Positions 8,111 to 54,047 of a DNA stretch of 64,000 nt are shown one piece after another (position 1 is the first letter of the stretch; every line of letters begins with the position of its first letter). The stretch covers positions 6,758,001-6,822,000 of the forward strand of contig NC_080577.1 in NCBI RefSeq assembly GCF_029962835.1, read 5' to 3'. The notes under the pieces were generated by a model. It searched no databases, had not been told where the DNA came from, and worked only from the letters and a program-made list of their open reading frames with translations. The position numbers and the translations under genes were made by a program. Source of the DNA: Magnolia sinica (lineage: Eukaryota > Streptophyta > Magnoliopsida > Magnoliales > Magnoliaceae).

Positions 8111-8119
8111 TTACAATAA

Positions 8120-9150
8120 GAGAAATTTCCTACGGTACGACCCATTTATGGCCCACCAGCCATTTGAAGCCCACCTCCTTTTAAGCTTCCAAGAATACTC
8201 CCCTGTGTACGGCCGACTTTTCAAGGGACCAAAATACCCCCGTCATTCATTCCTTCCGGAGGCCGATTGGCTGGGGTGCGAAGACGAGCGCCGACGCTCG
8301 TCGACATGGCCCCACAATGATGTATTTATTATATCCACACCGTTCATCCATATTTCGAGATCATTTCAGAGCATTATCGGAAAAAAGAATCACATCCAAA
8401 GATCAACTAGACCACACCACAAATAGCAGCAGGAAACTTGACTTTCACTGTTAAAAATTTCATAGGGCCCACCTTAACATATATTTTCCATCCAATCTAT
8501 TCATAAGGTCACAAAGACCTGGATGAAGAGGAAAAAAAAAAAATCATTTTGATCTAAAACTTCTGTGACCACTGAAAGGATTTCAATGGTAGACATTCAA
8601 TCCTCCACTGCCTTTTGCGGTGTGGTCCACTTGATCGCTAGATCGGTCTTATTTTTTGTCTCAAGCCTTAATACGAGTTCACCAAATAGATGGACGGTTT
8701 GGATATAACACATACATCATAATGGGACCCACAAAAAGCAGTGGGGATTACAACTGCAAAAAAAAATAATAATAATAATAATAAATTTAAAAAAAACCAG
8801 GAATTTAAGGCTGCGGGTTTTCTATGGCTACGGATTATAACCGTAGCCACAGCTATAGTATCTGCAATCAATGCAAATATTTTTATTTTTATTTTTACAT
8901 GCAGAACTTTATTCTACCTACAATTTTCTCTAATACATATTTATATAAATATATATATATAAGCATATAAATTTTTTTCTCTCTTTTTTTCATTTCTTTC
9001 TTTATTCATTTAAAAAGAATATCTTATAAACCAAAATTAGTTACTTGATGTACCCTATATGATTTTGGGGTAGGAGAAGCTATTTTAGCCAGCCAACCTG
9101 GTTAATTTTCAAGATTCCATCATGTCCATGGTCGAAAATCCATTTCATTC
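8120..9150 (+). repeat. Left terminal inverted repeat of the 8.1-kb MULE
   Basis: Pairs with 15170-16224. It contains the GGCCCACAATGATGTATTTA and ATATCCACACCGTTCATCCA words near 8309-8350 and their inverted counterparts near 8690-8730, so each arm is itself a foldback. The arms differ mainly at 8755-8960, where this copy has an AAT repeat. Confidence 0.85.
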
Positions 9151-11590
9151 ACTTCGCGGTCAATTTCAATCCGGTTGCGGTCAATTTCGTTCATTTCATT
9201 TACTTCATGATCATTTTTATGCATTTCATGGTCATTCCCAGTGATTCCATGTTGATTCACATTCATTTCCACGCATTTCACGGTCAATTCCCTTCACTTC
9301 ACGGTCATTTCCACGCATTTCACAGTCAATTCGCTTCACTTCACGGCCATTTCCAAGCATTTCACAATCAATTCTCTTCACTTCACGGACATTTCCATGC
9401 ATTTCACGGTCATATCTGGCAATTCTGTTTACGTTCATGGTCATTTCGACGCACTTCATGGTCAATTCACTTCACTTCACAGCCATTTCCAATCATTTCA
9501 TGATCAATTCTCTTTACTTCACGGCCATTTCCATGCATTTCATGGTCATATCCGGCAATTCCGTGTTCATTCATGGTCAATTCGACGCACTTCACAGTCA
9601 ATTCACTTCACTTCACGGCCATTTCCAAGCATTTCACGAGCAATTCTCTTCACTTCACGGCCATTTCCATGCATTTCACAATCATATTCAGCAATTCCGT
9701 TTACGTTCACAGTCATTTTGACGCACTTCACAGTCAATTCACTTCACTTCACGGCCATTTCCAAGGACTTCACGGTCAAAACTCTTCACTTCACGGCCAT
9801 TTCCATGCATTTCACGGTCATATCCGGCAATTTTGTTTACGTTCACGGTCAATTCGATGCACTTCACAGTCAATTCACTTCACTTCACAGCCATTTCCAC
9901 GCACTTCGCGGTCAATTCGCTTAACTTCACCGTCATTTCCATGCATTTCACAGTCATTCCCGGCGATTCTGTGTTCATTCACGGTCAATTCGACGCACTT
10001 CACGGTCAATTCACTTCACGTCACGGCCATTTCCACGCACTTCGCGGTCAATTCACTTAACCTCACCATCATTTCCATGCATTTCACGGTCATTCCCGAC
10101 GATTCCCTGTTCATTCACGGTCAATTCGACGCACTTCACGGTCAATTCACTTCGCTTCATGGCCATTTCCACGCACTTCGCGGTCAATTCACTTCACTTC
10201 ACCGTCATTTCTGTGCATTTCATGGTCATTCCCAGCGATTCCGTGTTCATTCACGGTCAATTCGATGCACTTCACGGTCAATTCACTTCACTACACGGCC
10301 ATTTTGACGCACTTCACCGTCAATTCACTTCACTTCACCGTCATTTCCATGCATTTCACGGTCATTCTCGGCGATTCTGTGTTCATTCATGGTCAATTCG
10401 ACGCACTTCACGGTCAATTCACTTCACTTCACGGCCATTTCCACACACTTCGCGGTCAATTCACTTAACTTCACGGTCATTTCCATGCATTTCACGATCA
10501 TTTTCGGCGATTCCGTGTTCATTCACGGTCAATTCGACGCACTTCACGGTCAATTCACTTCACTTCACCGTCATTTCCATGCATTTCACGGTCATTCCCG
10601 GCGATTCCGTGTTCGTTCACGGTCAATTCAACCCACTTCACGGTCAATTCACTTCACTTCACGGCCATTTCCACGCACTTCGCGGTCAATTCACTTCACT
10701 TCACCGTCATTTCCATGCATTTCACGGTCATTCCCGGTGATTCCGTGTTCATTCAAGGTCAATGCGACGCACTTCACGATCAATTCACTTCACTTCACAG
10801 CCATTTCGACGCACTTCGCGGTCAATTCACTTAACTTCACCGTCATTTCCATGCATTTCATGGTCATTCCCAGTGATTCCATGTTCATTCACGGCCAATT
10901 TGACGCACTTCACGGTCAATTCACTTCACTTCACGGCCATTTCAGCGCACTTCGCGGTAAATTCACTTCACTTCACCGTCATTTCCATGCATTTCACGGT
11001 CATTCCCGGCGATTCCGTGTTCATTCACGGTCAATTCAACCCACTTCACGGTCAATTCACTTCACTTCACGGCCATTTCCACGCACTTCGCGGTCAATTC
11101 ACTTCACTTCACCGTCATTTCCATGCATTTCACGATCATTCTTGGCGATTTCGTGTTCATTCACGGTCAATTCAACGCACTTCACGGTCAATTCACTTCA
11201 CTTCACGGCCATTTCCACGCACTTCGCGGTCAATTCACTTCACTTCATCGTCATTTCCATGCATTTCACGGTCATTCCCGACGATTTCGTGTTCATTCAT
11301 AGTCAATTCAACGCACTTCACGGTCAATTCACTTCACTTCACGGCCATTTCCACGCACTTCGCGGTCAATTCACTTCACTTCACCGTCATTTTCATGCAT
11401 TTCACGGTCATTTTGCTTCACTTCACAGTCATTTCCATGCATTTCACGGTCATTTTCCAGCGATTCTGGTTAGATTCACGGTCATTTCGATGCACTTCAT
11501 GGTCAATTCCCTTCAATTCAAGCCCATTTCCATGCATTTCACGGTCAATTCGCTTCACTTCATGGACATTTCGATTCACTTCACGGTCAA
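9150..11590 (+). repeat. 136-bp tandem array (block A1)
   Basis: The landmark GATTCCGTGTTCATTC recurs at 9965, 10101, 10237, 10373, 10509, 10603, 10739, 10875, 11011, 11147 and 11283. Ten of these eleven landmarks sit in a strict 136-bp rhythm, apart from one 94-bp unit that lacks a 42-bp subunit. Each unit is built from shorter words such as CACGGTCAATTCACTTCACT and CGGCCATTTCCACGCACTT. Units at 9200-9900 are more divergent. The array has few stops on the + strand, which produces long spurious ORFs; because 136 is not a multiple of three, the frame rotates each unit. Confidence 0.9.
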
Positions 11591-11850
11591 CACGAAATCG
11601 CGGGGAATGGCCCTGAAATGCATGGAATTGATCGCGAAGTAAATGAAATGAATGAAATTGACCGCGAAGTGAATGAAATGGATTTTCGACCATCAACCTG
11701 ATGGAATCTTAAAAAATAACCAGGTTGGTTGGCTAAAGTAACTTCTCCTACCCTAAAATCATATAGGGTACGTCAAGTAACTAATTTTGGTTTAGAAGAC
11801 ATTCTTGTTAAATGAAGAAAGAAAGAAATGAAAAAAAAGAGAGAAAATGC
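11590..11850 (-). repeat. Internal inverted copy of the arm's inner end
   Basis: 11690-11850 is the reverse complement of about 9000-9140, including ACCAGGTTGGTTGGCTAAAG and GGTACGTCAAGTAACTAATT. 11590-11690 is the inverted edge of the array. Block A1 is therefore bounded on both sides by the same sequence in opposite orientation and resembles a nested foldback. Confidence 0.8.
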
Positions 11851-12255
11851 ATGGAAATGACCGTGAAGTGAAGCGAATTCTTGTTAAATGACCGTAAAAT
11901 GCATGGAAATGACCATGGAGTGAAGCGAATTGACCGTGAAATGCGTGGAAATGACCGTGGAGTGAAAGGAATTGACCGTGAAATGCGTGGAAATGACCGT
12001 GAATCAACACGGAATCACCGGGAATGACCATGAAATGCATGGAAATGACCCTGAAGTGAAGCGAATTGACCTTGAAATGCGTGGAAATGACCGTGAAGTG
12101 ACGGGATTTGACCATGAAATGCGTCAAATTGACCTTGAATCAACACGGAATCACCGAGAATGACCGTGAAATGCATGGAAATGACCGTGAAGTGAAGCGA
12201 ATTGACCATGAAGTGCATAGAAATGACCATGAATCTAAACGGAATCACCGGAAAT
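11850..12255 (-). repeat. Tandem array block A2 (reverse orientation)
   Basis: Reverse-strand copies of the array words (GACCGTGAAGTGAAGCGAAT, AATGACCGTGAAATGCATGG), about three divergent units, between the internal arm copy and the GTCGACC foldback. Confidence 0.8.
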
Positions 12256-12375
12256 GAATCTAAGCTTCAATAAAAGAATCTATGCTTCGCTACAGAATGC
12301 ATTTCATATATCCATACTGTTCATTCATTTGTTTAAATGATTTAAGATCATGTACCCAAAAATAAAGTAGATCTA

Positions 12376-12676
12376 AAGCTCAATGTGACCCATAATAGAA
12401 AACAGTGGATATTGAATGCCTACACGAAGGAAAACAGTTGGGGTCGACCGGGTATAACCCAGTCGACCCCAACTCTCTGGACGGTTACTTGGTCGACCGG
12501 GTTGTGACCCGGTCGACCCCATACGCGTAAAATTCACATAAATGGGGTTGACCCGGTCGACCAAGTAATGTCCAGAGAGTTGGGGTCGACTGGGTCATAG
12601 CCAGTCGACCCCATCTATTTCCTTCGTGTAGGCATTCAATATCCACTATTTTGTATCATGTGGCCCACTTGAGCTT
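12376..12676. repeat. Foldback (long hairpin) rich in GGTCGACC
   Basis: The left arm 12376-12521 and right arm 12543-12676 are near reverse complements around a 21-base loop at 12522-12542. Each arm contains smaller palindromes of the form GGGGTCGACYGGGT...ACCCRGTCGACCCC and the shared words CAACTCTCTGGAC and GCCTACACGAAGG. The outer ends match as AAGCTCAAtGTGacCCA against its complement near 12660-12676. A related GGTCGACCGG stretch occurs at 15511-15532. Confidence 0.85.
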
Positions 12677-12890
12677 CTTATTTCTATGCCAATTTGGAGA
12701 CATCATTTTCGTCAATAGAGAAAGGGCCAGTTTCATCATCTGGTGGATCTGAAGGGGAGGAGGTGGGCCACCATCTTCCAATTGAGAATCTCTATTTGCA
12801 TGAAGGGGGAGGAGATAATAGTGATTTAGAGGGTATATTATTTCATGGGTTGATAGAGAACGGACCGCTATCATCATCTGGACAAGTATT
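12677..12890 (+). other. Unique segment between array blocks, possible captured exon
   Basis: Open on the + strand from 12694, reading METSFSSIEKGPVSSSGGSE and later IENGPLSSSGQ. The serine-rich phrase occurs twice (EKGPVSSSG, ENGPLSSSG). The ORF then runs straight into array sequence at about 12890, so no complete gene is present. I do not recognise the protein. Confidence 0.35.
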
Positions 12891-13186
12891 TCATGGTCAA
12901 TTCCCTTCACTTCACGGTCATTTCCACGCATTTTACGGTCAATTCGCTTCACTTCACGGTCATTTCCATGCATTTCACGGTCATTCCCGGCGATTCCATG
13001 TTAATTCATGGTCATTTCCGCACATTTCACGGTCAATTCCCTTCACTTCACGGTAATTTCCACGCACTTCACGGTCAATTCGCTTCACTTCACGGTCATT
13101 TCCACGCATTTCACAGTCATTCCCCGCGATTCCATGTTGATTCACGGTCAATTCAATGCATTTCATGCTCAATTCCCTTCGCTTCA
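12891..13186 (+). repeat. Tandem array block A3 (forward orientation)
   Basis: Forward copies of the array words (CACGGTCATTTCCACGCA, CGGCGATTCCATGTT), meeting block A4 head to head at about 13186 around the point CTTCACCGTGAAATGCATTG. Confidence 0.8.
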
Positions 13187-15172
13187 CCGTGAAATGCATT
13201 GAATTGACTATTAAGTGAAGGGAATTGACCGTGAAGTGCATCGAATTGAACATGAATCAACACGAAATTGTCGGGAATGAACGTGAAATGCATGGGAATG
13301 ACAGTGAAGTGAAGCGAATTGACCGTGAAATGCGTAGAAATGATCGTGAAGTGAAGTGAATTGATCGTGAAATGCATGGAAATGACCGTGAAGTGACGGG
13401 ATTTGACCGTGAAGTGCGTCGAATTGACCGTGAATCAACACGGAATCACCGGGAATGACCGTGAAATGCATGGAAATGACTGTGGAGTGAAGCGAATTGG
13501 CCGTAAAATGCGTAGAAATGACCGTGAAATGCATGGAAATGGGTGTGAAGTGAAGTGAATTGACCGTAAAGTGCGTGGAAATGGCCGTGAAGTGATTTGA
13601 CCGTGAAGTGCGTCGAATTGAGCATGAATCAACACGGAATCGCCGGGAATGAACATGAAATGCATGGAAATGACGGTGAAGTGAAGTGAATTGACCGCAA
13701 AGTGCGTGGAAATGGCCGTGAAGTGAAGTGAATTGACCGTGAAGTGCGTCGAATTGACCGTGAATGAACACGGAATCGCCGGAAATTACCATGAAATGCA
13801 TGGAAATGACGGTGAAGTGAAGTGAATTGACTGCGAAGTGCGTGGGAAATGGCCGTGAAGTGAAGTGAATTGACCGTGAAGTGCGTCGAATTGACCGTGA
13901 ATCAACATGGAATTGCCGGGAATGACCGTGAAATGCATGGAAATGGGCGTGAAGTGAAGTGAATTGACCGCGAAGTGCGTGGAAATGGCCGTGAAGTGAA
14001 GTGAATTGACCGTGAAGTGCGTCGAATTGATCGTGAATGAACACGGAATCGCCGAGAATGACCGTGAAATGCATGGAAATGACGGTGAAGTGAAGTGAAT
14101 TGATCGCGAAATGCGTGGAAATGGCCGTGAAGTGAAGTGAATTGACCGTGAAGTGCGTCGAATTGACCATGAATCAACACGGAATTGCTGGGAATGACTG
14201 TGAAATGCATGGAAATGGGCGTGAAGTGAAGTGAATTGACCGCGAAGTGCGTGGAAATGGCCGTGAAGTGAAGTGAATTGACCGTGAAGTGCGTCGAATT
14301 GACCGTGAATCAACACGGAATCACCGGGAATGAGTGAAGTGAATTGACCATGAAGTGCGTCGAATTGATTGTGAATCAACACGGAATCACCAGGAATGAC
14401 CATGAAATGTATGGAAATGACGGCGTAGTGAAGTGAAATGACTGCGAAGTGCGTGGAAATGGCCGTGAAGTGAAGTGAATTGACCGTGAAGTGTGTCGAA
14501 TTGACCGTGAACCAACACGGAATCGGCGGAAATGACCGTGAAATGCATGTAAATGACGGTGAAGTGAAGTGAATTGACCGCGAAGTGGGTGAAAATGGCC
14601 ATGAAGTGAAGTGAATTGACCGTGAAGTGCATCGAATTGACCATGAATCAACACGGAATTGCTGGGAATGACTGTGAAATGCATGGAAATGGGCGTGAAG
14701 TGAAGTGAATTGACCGCGAAGTGCGTGGAAATGGCCGTGAAGTGAAGTGAATTGACCGTGAAGTGCGTCGAATTGACCGTGAATGAACACGGAATTGCCG
14801 GGAATGACCGTGAAATGCGTGGAAATGACAGTGAAGTGAAGTGAATTGACCGCGAAATGCGTGGAAATGGCCGTGAACTGAAGTGAATTGACCGTGAAGT
14901 GCATCGAATTGACCGTGAATCAACACGGAATCACCGGGAATAACCGTGAAATGCATGGAAATGACGGTGAAGTGAAGTAAATTGACCGTAAAGTGCGTGA
15001 AAATGGCCGTGAAGTGAAGTGAATTGACCGTGAAGTGTGTTGAATTGACCGTGAATCAACACGGAATCACTGGAAATGACCGTTAAATGCATGAAAATGA
15101 CGGTGAAGTTAAGTGAATTGACCCCGAAGTGCGTGGAAATAGCCGTGAAGTGAAGTGAATTGACCATGAAGT
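13186..15172 (-). repeat. 136-bp tandem array (block A4, reverse orientation)
   Basis: Reverse complement of the block A1 consensus; the landmark GAATCAACACGGAATC recurs throughout. It runs directly into the right arm at about 15172 (GGATTTTTAACCATTGACTC). With A1 it forms a second, inner pair of inverted arms roughly 2 kb long. Confidence 0.9.
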
Positions 15173-16224
15173 GGATTTTTAACCATTGACTCGATGGATT
15201 CTTGGAAAATCACTATATTAGTTGGCTAAATTAGCTTCTCCTATCCCAAAATTATATATGCTACGTTAAGTAACTCATTCTAGTTTAGGAGATATGCTTG
15301 TTAAATAAATAGATAAAGAAATGAATTAAGAGATAGAAAAATATTTTTATATACTTACATATACGTATTTTCATAATTATGTATTTTAGAAAAATGTAAG
15401 GGAGAAAAAGTTCTCCATGTAAAAAATAAAAATAAAAAATAAAAAAATAAAATAAAATTACAAAGTGGAACAGCGACTTAGCGCCGGGGTCAGTGGGACA
15501 GCGAATCGGGGTGGACGACCCGGTCGACCGGATCAAGGCTGGTGTTTTTTTTTTTCTCTTGTAATCCCATTGCTGTTTATGGGTTCCATTATGATGTATG
15601 AATTATATCCAAACCGTCTATCTATTTGGCGAACTCGTATTAAGGCTTTAGACGAAAAATAAGTCAGATCTAGCTATCAAGGGGACCACACCCTAAAAGG
15701 CAGTGGAGGATTGAACGTCTACCATTGAAATCCTTTCATTGGTCACAGAAGTTTTGGATCATTATAAATTTTTTTTTTCTTCTTCATCCAGGTCTTTGTG
15801 ACCTTATGAATAGATTGGATGGAAAATATATGTTATGGTGGGCCCTACAAAAGTTTTAATGGTGAAAATCAATTTTCCCGCTACTCGTTGTGGTGTGGTC
15901 CAGTTGATCTTTGGGTATGATTATTTTTTTTTGATAATGCTCTGAAATGATCTCGAAATATGGATGAACGTTGTGGATATAATAAATACATAACTGTGGG
16001 GCCATGCAACGTTGACATCTTTTGAACCGTTCGTACAACTCGGAGTTCGAGGATCGTAAGCGCTCGTCTTCGAGCACCAGGCGATCCGGCTCAGGAAAGA
16101 AGGCAGGGCATTTTCGACCTGAGAAATCGGGCCGTACAGCTGGGGAGTATTCTTGCAAGGTAAAAAACGAGTGGGCTTAAAAAGGTTGTGGGCCATATAC
16201 TGGTCGTACAGTTGAAAATTTCTC
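15170..16224 (-). repeat. Right terminal inverted repeat of the 8.1-kb MULE
   Basis: Reverse complement of 8120-9150, with the same inner word order (CTTCTCCTATCCCAAAAT, TTACTTAACGTAGC region). It differs by a GACCCGGTCGACCGG insertion near 15511-15532 and by an A-rich stretch at 15420-15460. Confidence 0.85.
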
Positions 16225-19200
16225 TTACAATAATTCCAAGATGGGATGTTAAAGCTGATTTGGTATATCACATGTATTCCCATGATTCTATTGGAAACTT
16301 CTAATGCATTCCAATTCCTGCACAAATACATTTCTTTTACTCCGATCTAAATGTAACCAGTAAGTCATTTACTCCCAAATAATTTACCTCTAATTCTATT
16401 ATCTATTTGCTTCCGTTTATTAGTTCCCAGATGAGCCCAAAAGTTTTTAAGTGTTTGCCATTAAATTTTTATGTGCCAGTTATGAAAGCACTTATTGCTT
16501 GATTTGTACCTCACTGAAAATTTTCCAGCCACTCGCCGCGACTTGCTTTTTGGCTTGTGTGGTAGCCGATATAAGCTCCAGCTGATCAGTGGTCCTGATC
16601 TCATAAGGGCATACTACCTATCCATTGGTTGTACAGCTTCTTCTAAGTCTTTTACTCTCGCGTATAAACTATTATACTCTACCAGTGTGTGATGGTTGAT
16701 GTGCAGGCACATATAGCATATAAGCAGCTCAAATTAAACCGTCCATACCATGGGCCCCCTATTTTGCTGGATCATGGACCAGAAGTTACACTAGATTTTC
16801 TCACCAAAGACGTGGTGGACATTTAGTGGATGTTGAGATGCAAAGCATTCAATGTTGGGATTTCACAAACGTCCATTAAATCAAGTCTAGGATTGCTCAA
16901 TAGGTCTTATTTTGAGTTACTGACCCATCAATTGTAGGTCTCTAGGTCTGTCAACAGGTCAGGTTTGGATCAGGTCAAGCACATTCCAGACCCAACCCTT
17001 ATGGTAGGACTTTAAGCCCAAGTCCAAGATAGGCTCAGGCCTACCCCTGTAAGTTAATAGCGGTTATAGCCTTAAGCTTAGTCTTAGCCGTAGTCTAAAC
17101 CTATTAATTACTTATGGAATTGAAATACTTATTTAGAAGAAAATTAATTCCTATTAATAGTCATCTAAGGAAATATTAATTGCTATTGAAATTGAAATAG
17201 TCATTTTAAAAAATATTAATTAACTTTGAAAAGTAAAAAAATCATCTAAAAGAATGTTCATTGTTATTATTAAATTCTCTAATATCTAATTTAGATTATA
17301 CATTAAATATTTTAAAAAATAAAGAGTGAAAATTTTAAATATACCTTTAGAAACTATAAATGTACAAGGCTTAGCTGGACTCAGGCTGGGACATGGGGCA
17401 TTTATACACGACCCAAACTTGGCTTGAGTAATAAATAGGCCATACTTGTAGGCATGAGCTTGGTCCTCAGGTCACATATGCAAGCCTAGGTTCAATAAAA
17501 GGCAGGTCAAGCCCGGAACTTGATAGGTGATAACAAACGCATTCATAAATTAAGTGGTAGGCCGTGTGAAGATAACTTCATTTCAACACTAATGTCTTGG
17601 TATCAATTCCCAAGTAGGGTGTGTACTAAAAAGCTAAACTCCAAAAAATAAAAAAAAATAAAAAAAATAAAATCCCAAAGCTGGATAGGCCAGCCTAAAC
17701 TCACATCCACCGAAAAAGTGTGTAAACCCAGTCACTGGTGTGATCCCACACTAATAAAAGATCAAGCCGGGTACGATTTTGGGTGGGGTTGGGCCACCTA
17801 CTAGATCAGGAAGAATTGGTGATGCATAGCTCTTCGCCTGCTGGCATGGTTTGGTACATTGCACATGGCTGTTTGGTGATCCAAACCGTCTACATCGAAC
17901 AAATCAAAAAGTTGACGAAGATTCCCCTGAAAATGGCTCAGTATGGAAATTTCTAACCCCCTCATATTTGACATACAAACACATGGTTGAGGGGAAGAAA
18001 TCAGTAACGGTCTATATTTAAAGAGAATACGTATAAAGATCGATGTTCTTGAGTTTTCAATCTGTAGGGATTTTTCAGAATCATCCTATCCAGTATGAGA
18101 CTTATCAAACTGACGGTTTGGATCACCTAACCCTGATCCCAAATATGCAGAACTGGAGGGGGTTAGCAAGCTGTACGTGTTTTGATGAGCGGGTCCTGTA
18201 ATTCTGTCACAGTACGTGGCATGTAAACCGGTCCCGCGAGCTACGTTACCGGTCCAGGCTCCATGACCGATATGCGATGTCCGAATCACCATCCACCCCG
18301 TGCGCACTCTAGCCCCAGCCGCTTCTCTCTGCTAGTATGCAGCGGGCGCTGCGTGGAAACTCCCATGCACTTCCATATTATAGGTCCACGTGTGAAAATA
18401 TGTGGTGATCGGGACTGTTGATCTGGTGGCATACCTGTTGGATGGGTCACAAGACAAAGTTTACAGTGATTGGATAATCTGAACATCTAATTGTTTTTCA
18501 ACCGTTCTTTTCAAAGTTTGATTATATGATGATTATGGAAGTCCAGTCCCATTTGATTCTTTGTATGTGGTCTATCCAGATGATGCCCCACCATAACAAC
18601 AGTTCCGATCATCGAATTCTTGCCACATTTCCTGTGAAGGTGGTCGTGGTTGAAGTTTTGTACACCCTGCGTCGCGGCATACGAGCTGGCATTAATATAA
18701 AACGAGTACTACTACTTTGCGGGTCGTTTCATGAAAGTTTCATCCTCATAATAATTGTATCTGGTGACACCGACTGTTCTTATGGTGGGCCATCCAGTGG
18801 ATAAGCCATACTCCATAAATCAAGAGTATCGAATGGTGGAAATTACCAGATAAGTGGCCTGAAAACGGAACGGTTGCATGGAAATAGCACGTATTCAACC
18901 AACAAATCTAAAAAAAAAGATAGTCGGAGGTGTGCAATCACCTGAATTTTCAGCCTACGCCCCAACCACATGTTGGCCAGCCAGATCAACGGTCCCGATC
19001 ACCGTAATTGTCAGCACCGTGTGGAGTGAACTGTACGAAACTTTTATGCATAGCATTCCTCTATGGACTCTGGATGCCCTTCAGGCTTCAACGCTTCGTA
19101 GGTTAAGCAACCTTAACCCACAACACGATGCTTGGGTTGGGGCCCAACTGATGTTTGCATGACATCGCCCGTAAAAATGAGGTGATAAAATCATTCCTAA

Positions 19201-27200: not shown

Positions 27201-30200
27201 GAAGGGGCAAGAGCTGAAATTGTGGTATGGTGTTTTTGGAAGGCGGCTATGGTTGGAGTTTTGGGTGAAAGGTGACTACAGTTGGGTTTTCTAGGAATGT
27301 CAGGACTGTCAGTTGAGGGAGATTGGTGTACAGTGGCCAGGGAGCTAATTTCAGGTGGTTTATTGGGTTTATAGTGTGGATTGGTTGGGGCTTGGATAGT
27401 AGGGCTTTTTGGTTACGGGATTGAGGTATGGGAGGGCTGCTATTGGTGTTGTGGCCTGTATACTGGGTTTAGGGCTGGGATTTGGGTTTTAATGGGGAAT
27501 AGTGCTTGGGTTACAGTGGGACTTGTACACAAACTGGAATTTGAGATTTAGGGCCTGTTTGGATACTACCAAATAAGTAGCTTTTTTAACTTCCATAAGT
27601 TAATAAGTTACTTTTCTTAAGTGAGTAAGTTTGGTTATTAAACTTAAATAAGTAGTTTTTTTAGAAAAAAAGTAACTTATTTTTATGAGTTATTTTTTTA
27701 TTGCTTTTCAACTTCCAGAAGCAACTTATTTCTTTCATTTTCATTGGTGACAGGGCAACTTGGGAAATTATTTAGGGAATATGCTCTCTATGGCCATGAA
27801 CCTCCTTTAAGCTTATGAGATTGGAAAATCATCCAATGAATGGGTAGATGATATAATGCCCATGATGATGGCCCATATTGAGGTAGCCCCCACATGATGG
27901 GCAACCCACTTTGAAGGTAGGGCCTACATGATGGGCAACCCACATCAAAGGTGGGCTCCACACGATGGTCAATTAATAATGGTGGGCCCCACGTGATGGA
28001 TGATCCACACCAAGTTGGGCCCCACATGATGGACAATCCACATCAAAGGTCAGTCTAATGATGAGTGGCCCATATACAAGGCGGGTCCTACATGATGGAC
28101 GGTCCACATGAAAGGTGGGCTCTACATGATGGGTAGTGGATATTGAAGATGGGCTCCACATAATGGACAAAAGCATTGATGTTGGGCCCCACATGATGGA
28201 TTACTAACATCAAAGGTGGGCTGTACCTAATGAACTGTGCACATTAAAGGTTAGCTCCTAATGATGAATCCCACAACCAAGGTAGGCCCTGCATGATGGA
28301 TGGCCCACCTTGAAGATGGGGCCCACACAATGAACGATCCACATCAAAGTTGTCCCCACATGATGGACGGTGGATGTGAGGGGAACCAAACAGACTTTCG
28401 GGATAATTACTTATGATGTTGGAAACCAACTATGCTTTCTACTTTTTGGGTGATAAGTATGTTGTTTACCAAACATACTTATCTGCTGTTTAAGAAGAGA
28501 CCAAGATAAGCTACTTATGGCATAAGTAGCTTATCTAAAGTAACTTACGGTCCAAACATCCCCTTAGTGGCTGCATTTGGGAAATTTTGATGGGGGAAGG
28601 GTGTTGTTGGATTTCAAGATATAGAGTGATGAGGGTTATGAAGGTAACTGAAGGTGTATTAGGGTTATGTGTCACGGGTGTGGAGGCTCAACCATGGACT
28701 TAGCCATTTTTGACACTTATTGTACATATACAAAGAGAGGTTTGTACGCATTAGAAGAGTGTAGAGAATTCTAGAGTGGACTAGAAGCATGTGGAGTAGT
28801 GTAAGATCTTTGAAGTGTTCTAGATTTCTCTAGTGGGTTCTTGTAGCTAGATTTGTGTAGAATGGATCATATGATGTTCATGTTATGAACGGATCATCTG
28901 ATGTTCCTCTCGTTTATGGTTTGTTAATTCAGTTAGCATTTTATTAGTTAGTAGTTAGTACTATTGATTAGTAAATAATAGCAATAATTTTACCCAATGT
29001 AGTTACTTTTGGGCTTGAATTTGTTATTTTTTCCTTTTTTCTTGTGGTCCACTTTTTGAGTACCAAACGATGTTTGAATGACATGAAATTGATCCAGTTG
29101 AAGGCCTTTTGAGTTTTCTTAAATGCTTCATGGAGTGAGTTATGAGCCATTTATCGAAGTCCCATATCAGTTTGATGGGATTTAGGGCAGTTTGTTCATT
29201 TTCAATAGTTTATTAAAGTAGATATTTATGCTTTACTTGATGAATGCTGTTAGGATTTTTTTTTTTTTTTGAATGGTTGATGAAAAATTGTAATTATGCA
29301 TGGCGAAATTCTCTTGCTTTGCGGGAGCTATTTCTCAAAACCTATCGAGTCTGTCGTTCAATACTAGCATGGTTTGTGGTTTGCTCATACAAGGTATGAT
29401 ACTTTGTCTTTGGTTGTTGTGATGTTAACCTTATCAAGGTATGAATGATAAATATGCATTTCTGATGTTTAATAGTGTTCTTTTTGTTAGTTGTGGTTCA
29501 TCATACTGCGTCACCTGCTAGCTCATTTACTTGTTGGTCAGTGATATGTATCTTTATTGTTCTGCGCAGATTTATCAGTCCCTAATTAGGATTTTATCAT
29601 GTACAGGTTTGAAGTTACTGGTGCTGAACTTTTTTGGCCTTATTTATTTATTTATTTTTAAGTTTTCTTTGAATCTTCTTACATACCTTTTGGCAATCCT
29701 TTTCACATGCCAAAGTTGTCATTTTAAATCCGTTGCCATGAATACTTTTGACTTTCCAGGTTTATTTTGCTGGTTTGGGTTGCCTGAAAAATGTTAGAGC
29801 AGCACTTTGCAGGGGAAGGGCATTGAAATGTAGCCGCTGTGGGAGGCCTGGAGCAACTATTGGGTGTCGTGTTGATCGATGCCCTAAGACTTACCACTTG
29901 GTCGTATGATGTGCTTTTCCTAATTTCAAATCACTTCATTTTCTTACTTCTATTCCTGTAGCCACTATTTCACTTCTGCTTACATTCAACCTTTTTTGCT
30001 GCAGCCTTGTGCGCGAGCTGAGGGTTGCATTTTTGATCATCGTAAATTTCTCATAGCTTGTACAGACCATCGGCATCTTTTCCAACCCCAAGGGAATGAC
30101 TATTTGCGGCGGATTAAAAAACTAAAGGCTAGGAAGATGAAGTTTGATATGAGGAAGCTGTCTACCGATGCTTGGCGGAAGGATGTTGAGGCAGAAGAAA

Positions 30201-33200
30201 AGTGGTTGGAAAATTGTGGTGAGGATGAGGAGTTCTTGAGACGTGAAGGCAAGAGGCTTCATCGAGATATCTCAAGAATTGCACCTGTGTACATTGGAGG
30301 TTCATCTTCTGACAGCGAAAAATCATATCAGGGTTGGGAATCAGTGGCTGGGCTGAAGGATGTCATCCAGTGCATGAAGGAGGTGGTCATATTACCCCTT
30401 CTATACCCTGAGTTCTTTAGTAATCTTGGGCTAACTCCTCCTAGAGGGGTTCTGTTGCATGGTTATCCTGGGACAGGTAAGACTCTAGTAGTGCGGGCAT
30501 TAATCGGTGCATGCTCTCGTGGTGATAAGCGGATAGCATACTTTGCTCGTAAAGGTGCAGACTGTTTAGGAAAATATGTCGGTGATGCTGAGCGCCAGTT
30601 AAGATTGCTGTTTCAGGTTGCTGAGAGATCTCAACCATCTATAATATTTTTTGATGAGATTGATGGTTTAGCACCATGCCGCTCTAGGCAGCAAGACCAA
30701 ACTCATAGTTCGGTTGTGTCAACTTTACTTGCCCTGCTGGATGGTCTAAAATCTCGAGGTTCAGTTATTGTAATTGGTGCAACAAATCGACCTGAGGCTA
30801 TTGATCCTGCTTTGAGGCGACCCGGGAGATTTGATAGGGAGATTTACTTTCCTCTGCCATCAGTTAATGATCGATCTGCTATTCTCTCACTCCATACGCA
30901 AAGGTGGCCAAAACCCATCTCTGGATCCTTGCTCAAGTGGATTGCTGAACAAACTGGTGGTTTTGCTGGTGCCGATCTGCAGGCTCTTTGCACTCAAGCA
31001 GCAATGATTGCTTTGAAGAGGAACTGTGCCCTGCAAGAACTACTGTCTGCTGCTGAGAAGTATCCAAATCATGGAAAACGTGTTTCTCTTCCATCTTTTG
31101 TGGTGGAGGAAAGGGATTGGTTGGCTGCTCTTGCATGTGTTCCTCCTCCATGCTCTCGCAGAGAAGCAGGAATGGCTGCAAATGATGTAGTTTCTTCACC
31201 TCTTCAAGCCCATCTTGTTCCATGTCTTCTGCAACCAATATCACACTTGCTTATTTCCCTGTACCTGGATGAACGCATCCAATTGCCCCCTTCTCTTTAT
31301 AAAGCTGCAAAGCTAACCAACAGTGTGGTTATTTCTGCCTTGGAACAGAAGAAAATCCCTGTTGTTTCATGGTCGACCCATCTTCATTGTTTGATACAGG
31401 AACCAGATGTTTCAAGGGAGCTAGAGAGAAATCTGTCTCGTGCTGGCCTATTAAGCAGTACTTCTTCTTTTTCTAATTCTGATCTATTAGATGATGATTG
31501 TGGTGGTCATGAGAAGTTTGAATTTGGAAGATTGAATCCTGCTGGTGCTCATGGACGCAGCAGTTTGATACAGAACTTGTCCCATTCACAGGGCAATGCG
31601 TCAGGATTTCGATTATTGATTACTGGAAGTCCCAGATCCGGCCAGCAGCATCTTGCTGCTTGTCTTCTCCATGGTTTTGCAGGCCATGTTGAACTCCAGA
31701 AAGTTAATTTGGCTACTATTTCCCAAGAAGGACGTGGAGACCTAGTTCAAGGGATAACACGCATTCTATGTACGTATTCTTTGGTTTCTTCGTTTTCTTT
31801 TCCTTTGCCTTTTTTCCCCTTTCAAGTAAATGTTAACTTGGTTTTAATTTTCTCATCTTTCCGTTACCTTTCAAAAAAAGAAAAAAGAAAAAAAAAGGAA
31901 ATATGTTGGTGATCTAATTTGATAGATCATGCATGGTCTGAAACCCCACCACTGAACTGGGTGTTTAAGCATGGTATCTAAATAGAAGCTCATGTCACCT
32001 GGACTTGGTTCTCATTTATATAAAACCTTAGAAGTGAAGAAAAGAAAAGAAAAGAAAAGAGGAGAAAAGGAGAGAGAGAAGAGGGAGAAGGGCTGCTCAA
32101 TTTGTTCACATGTCACTCACCTCTTTATTATTATATTAGGGCTTTCATTACTAAATAGAAAATTCCAGAACTGCCCCTCTTTACTTTAATATTGCATAAA
32201 CTAACCCTATGGGCTTAAACTCTAACCCAACAGATATTTTAGCCCAATAATTACAAGAGACCACATGTGAGACCAAGCTGGTCCACTTGAGTGATCACAA
32301 CGGTTCATTTAACACTCGCCCTCAAGCTGGAGTAGTATGGACTAGAAATTTCTTTATGAGAAACCTTATCACGAATGAAGTGACACTCGATCTGTATGTA
32401 TTTTGTTCTTTCATGAAATAAAGGATTGTTAGTTGTATGCATAGCAGCTTGACTATCACAATATAACAACATCAAAACTTGGACCGCAAATCCTAACTTC
32501 AAAAGTGATTTCAGCTAGACGAGTTCACAAGTCGTATGTGCCATAAGTCTATATTCTGCTTCAGCACTAGACCTCATAACAACGTTATGCTTCATGCTTT
32601 TTTTAGGTAACTAAATTACCACCAAGAAATGTACAGTAACCTGTATTCAACCGTCTATCTTGACCAGACATAATTTGCATCAGAGTACTCTGCTATTTTA
32701 AGATGGCCATGATATCTACATAAGATATCTTTTCCAAGTGTACACCTTAAGCATATACGATTCCTTATAACTGCAGCTAAATGTGGAGCTATGGCATATT
32801 GCATAAATTGGCTAATCATACTCACATAAAATGCAATAACATGCTTAGTAATAGTTAAATAAATGAGTTTGCTGATGAGTCTTCCATACAGTCCAGGGAC
32901 TGTCAATAACTCTTATTCTTCTAGATCAAGTCTGAGATGAGGATCCTTATGTGCATCTGTGGGTTTGGCACCCAACACAGTTGTCTCTTTTAACAAATAA
33001 CAAACATATTTCTTTTGGCATAAATATATCCCAACTTTGATTTCCCCACTACTAAGAAAATAGTGAAGTCATGGTATTTAATCTGGAACTGGGAACAAAG
33101 ATACGGCTTCAGTTTGTCAATACCCACCAAGTAATCACCCGTAATTATCATGCCAACTATGCATACAACAAGCACAATATAACCCAATGTAGCATGCCGA

Positions 33201-48914: not shown

Positions 48915-49592
48915 TCTTCTCCCTCTCCCTCTCCCTCTCCCTCTCCGTCTCCCTCTCCATCTTCTTCGTCTTCTTCTTCTTCTTCTTCTTCTTCTTCATC
49001 TCCCTCTCCCTCTCCGGATGTATTGCAGCATGTTCTTCTTCTTCTTCTCCCTCTCCTTCTCCCTCTCCCTTCTCCTTCTCCCTCTCCCTTCTTCTTCTTC
49101 TTCCTTCTTCTTCTTCTTCTTCTTCTTCCTCCTCTCTTCTTCTTCTTCTTCCTTCTTCTTCCTCTCCTTCTCCTTGTGCCATCATAAAAAATAGCAACAT
49201 GTGGGATGTATTGCAGCATGTTCTTCTTCTTCTTCTCCCTCTCCCTCTCTGTCTCCTTCTCCCTCTCCCTTCTCCTTCTCCCTCTCACTCTCCCTCCTTC
49301 CTTCTCCCTCTCCGTCTCCGTCTCCGTCTCCCTCTCCCTCTCCCTCTCCGTCTCCCTCTCCTTCTCCCTTCTCCCTCCCTCTCCCTCGCAGCATGTTCTT
49401 CTTCTTCTTCTTCTTCTTCCTTCCTACTCCCTCTCCCTCTCCCTCTCCGTCTCCTTCTCCTTCTCCCTTCTCCCATCTCCCTTCTCCCTCTCCCTCTCCC
49501 TCTCCCTCTCCTTCTCCGTCTCCGTCTCCGTCTCCCTCTCCCTCTCCTTCTCCCTTCTCCCTTCTCCCTCTCCCTCTCCCTCTCCTTCTCCT
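48915..49592 (+). repeat. Polypyrimidine block of CTCCCT and CTT repeats
   Basis: Almost pure C/T on the + strand for about 680 bp. It is interrupted by copies of GGATGTATTGCAGCATGTTC (49016, 49203) and shorter CAGCATGTTCTTCTTC (49389). The unit GCCATCATAAAAAATAGCAA occurs at 49178 and 49597, which suggests internal segment duplication. All long ORFs on both strands here are low-complexity artefacts. Confidence 0.9.
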
Positions 49593-52560: not shown

Positions 52561-53805
52561 TTGGAGTTTATGATTAGGCGTTTGGAAATGGACGAATGCT
52601 TTGAGCAGCTTGATGAATACATTGCCCGACTAAAGACTATTGCCAAGACAAACCCCACCATTGGGGTAGATGTCCAATCTCAGGCATGTGGCCTGAAGGA
52701 TAGACCAATGAATGGAGTTGGCCAAGAAATCAGTTATGGGCGTGCACCCGTGTACCCACCCCATGAGGGACATCAAGACCACTATTTTGAGGGGTACAAC
52801 ATGTGCAGCCTTGTGACTGGAGAGAGTGCACCAGATGTTAGTGTAGAGTTACCCACTGAGGTCATTCCGGTAGTGGATAAGTTTCGTGATGTTTGTCCTG
52901 ATGATCTACTGGATGAGTCCCCTAGGAGGGATATAGAGCACACCAGAACATGGGACACTGTAATACCTACAACCGAGTTTACGTTGAATAATTTTGTTGA
53001 TAAGTCCATAGGTCTAAGTCCTCGTGAAGTCGTTACTGATTATAAACCTAAGAAACTTATTGATCTTGTCCCTATGTCACTGTCCCATAGGTCGTCAGAG
53101 TTTACAGAGTCTTTTGCGCATCACATTCATTCATGGCATCAAGAAATTAGGCAGAAGATCATGACTAATAATGAATATTGCACATTTTCTACAGACCAGT
53201 ATAAATGTTTCAAAAGATTCAATATTGAGGATTCTGTGATGGTCTGCATTAGGCCCGAGCGGTATCTTTCGAGGGCCGTTCGTAAGTTACACGCGTGTAG
53301 CGCTGGACCGGTCAAAATTATAAAACGAAACGGTCTCAATGTGTATGAGGTAGGCCTTCCACCTTCCATGGGAATTAGTTTCACATCTGATGTGGAGGAT
53401 TTACTTACTTTTCAGGGGACCACTGATACTTTGTCCGGCCCTTCGCCCACCCATCCTGATTTCCCATATTTATCCCTTGAACCATGGCCCCTTCCCAACC
53501 CATTTTTCCAGCCTCTACCTCCCATATCTACTTTTCCTAACCTTTCTTCCCAGCCTCTACCTCCCATACCTACCCTTCTCGACCCATTTTCCGAGCCTCT
53601 ACGTCCCATACCTACCCGTCCCGACCCATTTTCCCAGCCTCTACCTCCCATATCTACCCTTCCCAACCTATTTTTCCAGCCTTTACGTCTCATACATACC
53701 CGTCCCGACCCATGTTTCCAGCCTCTACCTCCCATACCTACCCGTCCCGACCCATCTTCCCAGCCTCTACCTTCCATACCTATCCTTCCCGACTCATTTT
53801 TCTAG
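52561..53805 (+). pseudogene. Gypsy deletion-derivative ORF: integrase C-terminal region plus proline-rich repeats
   Basis: 414 codons counted from the first in-frame ATG-equivalent (TTG at 52561). A charged N-terminal part (EQLDEYIARLKTIAK) may derive from gag or its linker; a MEQLQESLNKLSQ start at 52519 ends in a stop just before it. Residues about 180-280 match the integrase C-terminal region of gypsy elements (SSEFTESFAHHIHSWHQEIR, DSVMVCIRPERYLSRAVRKL, VYEVGLPPSMGISF). The tail is a 42-bp tandem repeat. Not a host gene, because it lies between paired LTRs. Confidence 0.72.
53495..53805 (+). repeat. 42-bp tandem repeat coding for proline-rich units
   Basis: About seven units, each 14 codons of the type FSQPLPPIPTRPDP. 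CAGCCTCTAC recurs at 53509, 53551 and then in 42-bp steps. The phase is kept, so the frame stays open until TAG at 53803-53805. Confidence 0.88.
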
Positions 53806-54047
53806 TCTCTATCTCCCATACCTAACCTTCACACACTCAAAAAGGAAATAGAGGATATCCTGGACCATCAGATAGTTTCAACGTGGGACGGCGGGTTTCA
53901 AAAGTACGGGGTTAAATGGAAGTCACACCCAGCTTCAGACAGCACGTGGCTCACTGAGGAGGAGCTTCAGAGACTTGATCCTGACATCCTGGAGCGGTTC
54001 AGGAGTTTTATTTCGCCAGTGGCGAAATTTTTACAGCCGGGGAGAAT

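Follow-up and report, generated by a model that had tools for sequence, protein, structure and literature searches.

The window analysed here, a 64,000-nucleotide stretch of the Magnolia sinica genome (G000:C5:6758001-6822000), contains a complete transposable element of 8,105 bp at positions 8120-16224, which is very probably a non-autonomous Mutator-like element (MULE) of Foldback form, moved in trans, with arms that grew inward from short terminal inverted repeats (TIRs) before the element was amplified together with its tandem arrays. This reading draws on the structure of the element, on the joining of its ends and arrays across the 1.84-Gb genome searched (127 contigs), on the inheritance of the arrays between copies, and on gene-bearing relatives with common termini.

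Structure of the element

The element lies between two copies of a 9-bp target site duplication (TSD), TTACAATAA, identical at 9/9 positions, and both arms start with GAGAAATTT. Alignment of the left arm (8120-9190) with the reverse complement of the right arm (15150-16224) gives 845 matches over 1,158 columns including gaps, with the TIRs extending over ~1.05 kb. Inward of the left TIR follow, in order, a ~2.4-kb forward array of a 136-bp unit, the inner arm end repeated over 160 bp in reverse orientation together with a small reverse array, a ~630-bp core with a hairpin, a small forward array, a ~2.0-kb reverse array, and the right TIR. Tandem Repeats Finder (TRF) places the 136-bp arrays at 9298-11589 (16.8 copies, 85% matches), 13517-14333, and 14333-15173, with the left and right arrays shown to pair over up to 841 nt at 88% in an inverted-repeat search. 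Each 136-bp unit is built in turn from 21-bp monomers, as a higher-order repeat with the predominant spacing 21-21-21-21-52. The element has long inverted repeats made up for the most part of tandem repeats, the hallmark of the Foldback structural class. All of these parts, namely the 8.1-kb element with a perfect TSD, the ~1-kb TIRs, the inward arrays, the smaller array pair in the middle, the internal arm-end copy, and the hairpin, had been proposed in a first-pass annotation of the window and are borne out here. Within a single strand of an element, array units differ from one another by ~13% on average, which makes a collapsed or duplicated assembly of the arrays unlikely.

The core hairpin has a predicted folding energy of -78.7 kcal/mol (z -14.7), with equal stability reached in 0/200 shuffles. 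It is near-perfect and GGTCGACC-rich, and resembles a small nested palindromic element.

No transposase domain was found in the 10 frames scanned among the 23 of at least 80 aa in the element (four long array frames, and six others that lie in the TIRs or reach the core), with no Pfam match above a curated cut-off. The window copy can only be a non-autonomous member, and would therefore have been moved in trans, if at all. The open frames of the arrays, reaching 417 aa in the window and 424 aa in the copy L016, were rejected as coding and are read as by-products of composition, because a period of 136 bp is not divisible by three, and long frames overlap in different reading frames. Against Pfam, four of the array frames of the window gave only sub-cut-off matches to unrelated animal and viral families, the latter from one virus, taken as chance matches on repetitive sequence.

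Ends, target site duplications, and arrays in the genome

The terminal 23-mer of the element, allowing up to 2 mismatches, occurs at 764 + 782 = 1,546 places in the genome, compared with 0 + 2 places for a reversed control pattern. A search with the left end yielded 746 candidate places, 40 of which were scored, each 92-100% identical and the window copy included. The 39 other copies sampled consist of 20 long stretches (L009-L028; 10 kb each, except L016 with 5.4 kb) and 19 short pieces (L029-L047; 1.2 kb inward, with only the left arm visible). The 136-bp/21-bp array lies directly inside the left end in 37/39 of these copies (19/20 long, 18/19 short), and arrays on both strands together with a right end are present in 16/20 long stretches, the right end falling outside the fetched stretch in L018, L023, and L028, and L016 being without the main array. 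Close pairs of facing ends sampled from the 23-mer places hold at least one unit match in 9/9 cases, and three or more in 8/9. One locus with facing ends only 3.2 kb apart (C5:2807289-2810475, L054) holds forward and reverse units, and is perhaps a very short foldback form.

TSDs were scored in 18 elements, the window copy and 17 other copies, with L018, L023, and L028 outside the scoring. Although the script chose the best of many boundaries, in the 13/18 elements with a TSD matching at 8-9 of 9 positions the chosen boundary is that of the conserved termini. The TSD is perfect in seven elements (window, L009, L011, L012, L013, L015, and L026) and matches at 8/9 in six (L014, L017, L019, L021, L024, and L025); L010 matches at 7/9, and four are not resolved (L016, L020, L022, and L027), L020 being kept among the latter with flanks that match over 8 bp beside a shortened right end. 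A MULE transposase acting on such ends yields 9-bp duplications, and the Mutator-like assignment made in the first-pass annotation agrees with the TSDs of 8-9 of 9 positions on 12 of the 17 other copies. In L027, a second right arm of the family lies inverted ~50 bp past the right end (L027 9377-10000; C18:17107696-17108343), and is 84% identical to that of the window.

The arrays might instead be a host satellite, with transposon ends inserted into or around them by chance. The repeat is found in many places, with 391 unit matches coming from the 40 places scored out of 2,752 candidates, and in a survey of 43 unit positions, taken from 150 listed of the 391 matches, 8/34 unit clusters have no family end among the incomplete lists of ends used and may or may not be free-standing arrays. 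These lists comprise the left-end and right-arm listings and four 23-mer ends chosen for their nearness to clusters. A listed family end does, however, lie within 12 kb of the other 26 clusters (23 by computed comparison, and three by eye, at C17:63.38, C2:36.15, and C15:68.11 Mb), and the chance insertion of ends is also at odds with the array lying directly inside the end in nearly all sampled copies, with an array order that is partly conserved between elements, and with gene-bearing relatives that hold the same array. The satellite explanation is largely refuted and has next to no probability left, and the case considered in the first-pass annotation, in which ends and arrays occur independently and no other copy joins them, is contradicted by the 37/39 other sampled copies that do join them.

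Inheritance of arrays and layout

Unit statistics were drawn from 460 of 549 near-full units (768 unit matches) in 16 of 21 elements, with L016, L018, L023, L025, and L028 excluded as incomplete or atypical. For each unit, the nearest unit was determined after exclusion of its own same-strand neighbours. It belongs to another element in 361/460 cases on the same strand (~227 expected at random) and in 79/460 on the opposite strand (~218 expected), and to the opposite strand of the unit's own element in 20/460 (~15 expected). The order of units along the arm is also partly kept between elements (rho 0.62 forward and 0.29 reverse, with control maxima of 0.21 and 0.17). Nearest units on the same strand and a partly kept order indicate that the arrays travel with the transposon; they are inherited in a strand-specific, and hence arm-specific, manner rather than re-made.

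The layout of the window element is inherited too. It recurs in L018, L020, and L027, and a branch in the left-TIR tree (support 79/69) sets these three and the window copy apart on one side, with 0/500 label shuffles giving a value as low. The remaining layout classes assessable in this tree are scattered.

These results bear on the idea that each copy acquires its foldback arms independently after insertion, when the two arms undergo mutual gene conversion or inversion (gap repair on a hairpin). Such events would account for the strand switches and nested inner-end copies, which vary between copies, and for a count of units nearest to their own opposite strand that does not fall below the random value. 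The strong excess of same-strand nearest units from other elements, and a window layout common to a group of four, are difficult to reconcile with arms made afresh, and we consider this explanation very unlikely.

Gene-bearing relatives and the proposed origin of the arms

The first-pass annotation had suggested looking for a MuDR-type transposase copy with the same ends, and one such relative is present at C5:33236506-33251871. This element spans 15,366 bp. The 23-bp terminus is exact at both of its ends, its flanks (GGATCCTTT/GAATCCTTT) match at 8/9 positions, its TIRs measure 121 bp (90% identical), and its arrays run forward in the left arm and in reverse in the right. Its interior holds MuDR transposase pieces with matches above the cut-off to PF03108 (E 1e-12) and PF10551 (E 2.7e-13). 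A search with its transposase piece gave 1,024 candidates, 150 of which were scored. Among these is a second relative, L070 (C2:9757000-9760400), whose terminus differs from the 23-mer by 2 mismatches and which combines a 21-bp array of four copies with an open transposase frame that carries PF03108. In a search with the L070 end (40 scored of 1,538 candidates, compared with 100 of the 150 listed MULE hits), a MULE domain on the same strand lies 3.3-6.2 kb inward of 19/40 ends, at 3,273-3,429 bp in 15 of them. One of the elements with such a domain, 22.6 kb long (C3:4623885-4646529), has an identical terminal 30 bp at both ends, and its right arm contains a 136-bp array (6.7 units) with a predominant spacing of 21-21-21-21-52, two of 38 steps being irregular. 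Aligned with each other, the L070 left arm and the right arm of this element define a TIR of 120 bp at 97.5% identity.

Arrays are also present at C1:123898776 (L069), with no recognisable end within 3.4 kb, where the end may be at the cut edge, and at C13:41862228 (L071), where the end is placed almost wholly outside the fetched piece. Two MULE hits near listed ends (C9:81405148 and C4:86696922) had no family end in the 3.4 kb fetched on their outer side, and were not used.

The coding relatives, with TIRs of 120-121 bp, short or moderate arrays, and genes, stand in contrast to the foldback copies, with a ~1.05-kb TIR, ~2-kb arrays, and no genes, and this difference suggests arm growth. In the proposed sequence of events, a MuDR-type transposase, provided in trans by gene-bearing relatives with common termini, would cut the ends (GAGAAATTTCC[T/A]ACTGTACGACC...) and insert them with duplication of 9 bp of the target. 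The arms would have lengthened inward, from a TIR of ~120 bp to ~3 kb each, by growth of the sub-terminal 21/136-bp array; the same sub-terminal block would have been given to both arms and the genes lost, and the finished foldback would then have multiplied, carrying its arrays along. The comparison suggests both the direction, from gene-bearing to foldback form, and the molecular step. The outer 645 bp of the right arm have 10,192 first-look candidates in the genome, and the sub-terminal block may thus be common to other repeats.

A simpler route, in which an autonomous element lost its coding core and otherwise kept arms like those of a coding relative, appears unlikely. The 15.4-kb relative already has inward arrays on both arms, and the arrays of L070 and L072 are short on the left and longer on the right, in favour of this route; however, the TIRs of the coding relatives are far shorter than those of the window element, and its sub-terminal block is only partly represented in the coding arms (in L070, a single stretch of 207 bp at 71%, in addition to the outer ~120 bp), such that more than deletion seems to be needed.

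A second 21-bp repeat

L016 (G000:C4:105048294-105053735) and L015 are neighbours with almost identical left TIRs, sisters in the left-TIR tree (100/99), with a common left flank, TTTCTAAAA. L015 has the 136-bp array, whereas L016 has inverted arrays of another 21-bp repeat with GTTTGCCCCGCT motifs, which is also found inside the ends of L029 (C16:18209500-18210700) and of L052/L053. Genome-wide, this second repeat is a dispersed repeat of its own (40 scored of 3,377 candidate places), with only the C4:105.04-105.05 Mb group among the scored places judged by eye to lie near listed family ends. A rotation-and-orientation test for homology of the second repeat to the main one was not significant (0.66 for L016, 0.06 for L029). 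We think that the second repeat belongs mainly to another family, with L016, L029, and the element at C4:9728584 being hybrids or nested copies. A derivation of the main 21-bp repeat from the TIR is likewise not claimed, with the best match in the left and right TIR equalled in 0.025 and 0.02, respectively, of 200 Markov-chain shuffles, a weak signal from arms that are not independent.

The arrays may serve as extra docking sites for the transposase, by analogy with Galileo. A stronger form of this idea holds that the 21-bp monomer array (two helical turns, with a 52-bp step of about five turns) is a functional docking platform of the MULE clade, in coding and foldback members alike; this we regard as doubtful. 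If it were true, selection on spacing, not sequence, would explain the other 21-bp repeat as a substitute in some copies, but the assignment of the second repeat mainly to another family weakens such a reading.

Weighing of the evidence

Several observations count against a trans-mobilised foldback MULE that was amplified with its arrays. All copies compared come from one genome, and we infer transposition itself from their sequences. Two of the 39 sampled copies (L016 and L029) hold a different 21-bp array, and L052/L053 (C4:9728584-9735057) is a mixed element, combining the second repeat with one match to the main repeat. The nearest-unit test uses strand as a proxy for arm and counts the small inner arrays too, and the separation of unit classes comes only from this test, with mean unit differences hardly distinguishing them (0.132 within a strand, 0.135 to the element's own opposite strand, and 0.137-0.139 to other elements). 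As the count for the own opposite strand is no lower than random, our confidence is slightly lowered, and the tree support for the window-like group is only moderate. Among the coding relatives, the transposase frame of the 15.4-kb element is fragmented, and the L070-type transposases have long open frames but ends only ~75% identical to those of the window over ~120 bp; consequently, neither can be assigned as the mover of the foldback copies. The 22.6-kb element is flanked by poly-A, where no TSD is resolvable. With these points taken into account, the trans-mobilised foldback MULE remains the explanation in which we have high confidence.

Features of the window

The coordinates of the element's parts are collected in Table 1. 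Elsewhere in the window, an open frame on the forward strand at 29924-31909 holds an AAA ATPase domain (PF00004, E 3.1e-38) and is likely a host gene, ~14 kb from the element. A second forward frame at 52561-53802, with a Tf2-1-like SH3 domain (PF24626), runs into a 42-bp minisatellite at 53489-53830. A 34-bp tandem array (14.6 copies, 64% matches), starting AGGTGGGCCCTACATGATGG, occupies 27881-28368, and a long TCTCCC/TCT simple-repeat tract occupies 48916-49591.

Table 1. Parts of the foldback element, in positions of the window
Feature	Position	Strand	Basis
Left TSD TTACAATAA	8111-8119	.	Identical to 16225-16233
Left TIR (outer end, sub-terminal part, inner end)	8120-9150	+	Right-arm alignment; conserved in copies
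Left forward array, 136-bp higher-order repeat of 21-bp monomer	9188-11590	+	TRF; also in 37/39 other copies
Short reversed array piece, switch point	11589-11671	-	Comparison of copies
Internal inverted copy of inner arm end, 91% to 8991-9150	11671-11830	-	Layout also in L018, L020, L027
Small reverse array	11845-12233	-	TRF, comparison of copies
Array-free core, 89-93% to L018, L020, L027	12258-12887	+	Comparison of copies
Long hairpin within core	12430-12640	.	z -14.7
Small forward array	12911-13180	+	TRF, comparison of copies
Right reverse array of 136-bp unit	13186-15173	-	TRF, inverted-repeat search, comparison of copies
Right TIR	15174-16224	-	Arm alignment; outer 645 bp: next 39 ranked copies 90-95% identical
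Right TSD TTACAATAA	16225-16233	.	Identical to left TSD

Comparison with known elements and significance

The first-pass annotation had judged the architecture unusual and possibly that of a distinct family; unusual it is, but not new in kind, with Foldback-like MULEs, some of them from plants, already described. In the open-access literature, which did not extend to the original description of FARE, we found no MULE family of plants with higher-order arrays of 136-bp units on a kilobase scale, and this is not proof of absence. We know of no kilobase 136-bp higher-order arrays in FARE, nor of a matching array in coding relatives of FARE. Foldback-like MULEs include FARE and MuTAnT in plants (PMC4486113) and Tm1 in nematodes (PMC3169594), with FARE of Arabidopsis described as a plant foldback that has long palindromic repeats at both ends and is classed with the MULEs (PMC4486113, PMC3169594).

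Nearest in form is Tetris of Drosophila virilis, described as having a flanking domain of up to 866 bp followed by ~220-bp tandem repeats in long TIRs, a variable middle, an 8-9-bp TSD, and an apparently non-autonomous character (PMC4079207). In contrast to the family described here, no autonomous partner was found for Tetris, and three structurally complete copies are reported, compared with ~1,546 end matches in the present genome (PMC4079207). The Tm1 Mutator/Foldback elements of root-knot nematodes are likewise associated with a MULE transposase, a 9-bp TSD, and composite TIRs with a variable number of tandem repeats, but differ in their 13-15-bp repeats, Phantom-type transposase, and animal host (PMC3169594).

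Galileo of Drosophila also has long, internally repetitive TIRs, whose repeats hold transposase binding sites, but it belongs to the P-element superfamily, and binding that is shown for Galileo is a guess for the window family (PMC3688188). The same paper describes the tandem repeats of Foldback and Phantom elements as untested in this role (PMC3688188). Kaonashi (KI-)MULEs combine mudrA with a second gene in reverse orientation (PMC2528002), and a reverse-strand DUF1985 piece (PF09331) is present in the 15.4-kb and 22.6-kb relatives, at 30.5 and 27.3 bits, below the cut-off of 35.1. No ULP peptidase domain was found among the pieces scanned in these two coding relatives, and KI-MULEs are described as being without TIRs (PMC2528002), unlike both the coding relatives and the window element.

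In this one genome, many foldback derivatives with arms of ~3 kb coexist with MuDR-type coding relatives that have shorter arrays and TIRs of ~120 bp, and nearly all of the sampled foldback copies hold the same repeat as the coding relatives. The presence of both forms in one genome makes it possible to test the growth of foldback arms from ordinary TIRs, and whether the arrays help in transposition. Furthermore, inverted arrays of kilobase length predict hairpin transcripts and silencing signals, if they are transcribed.

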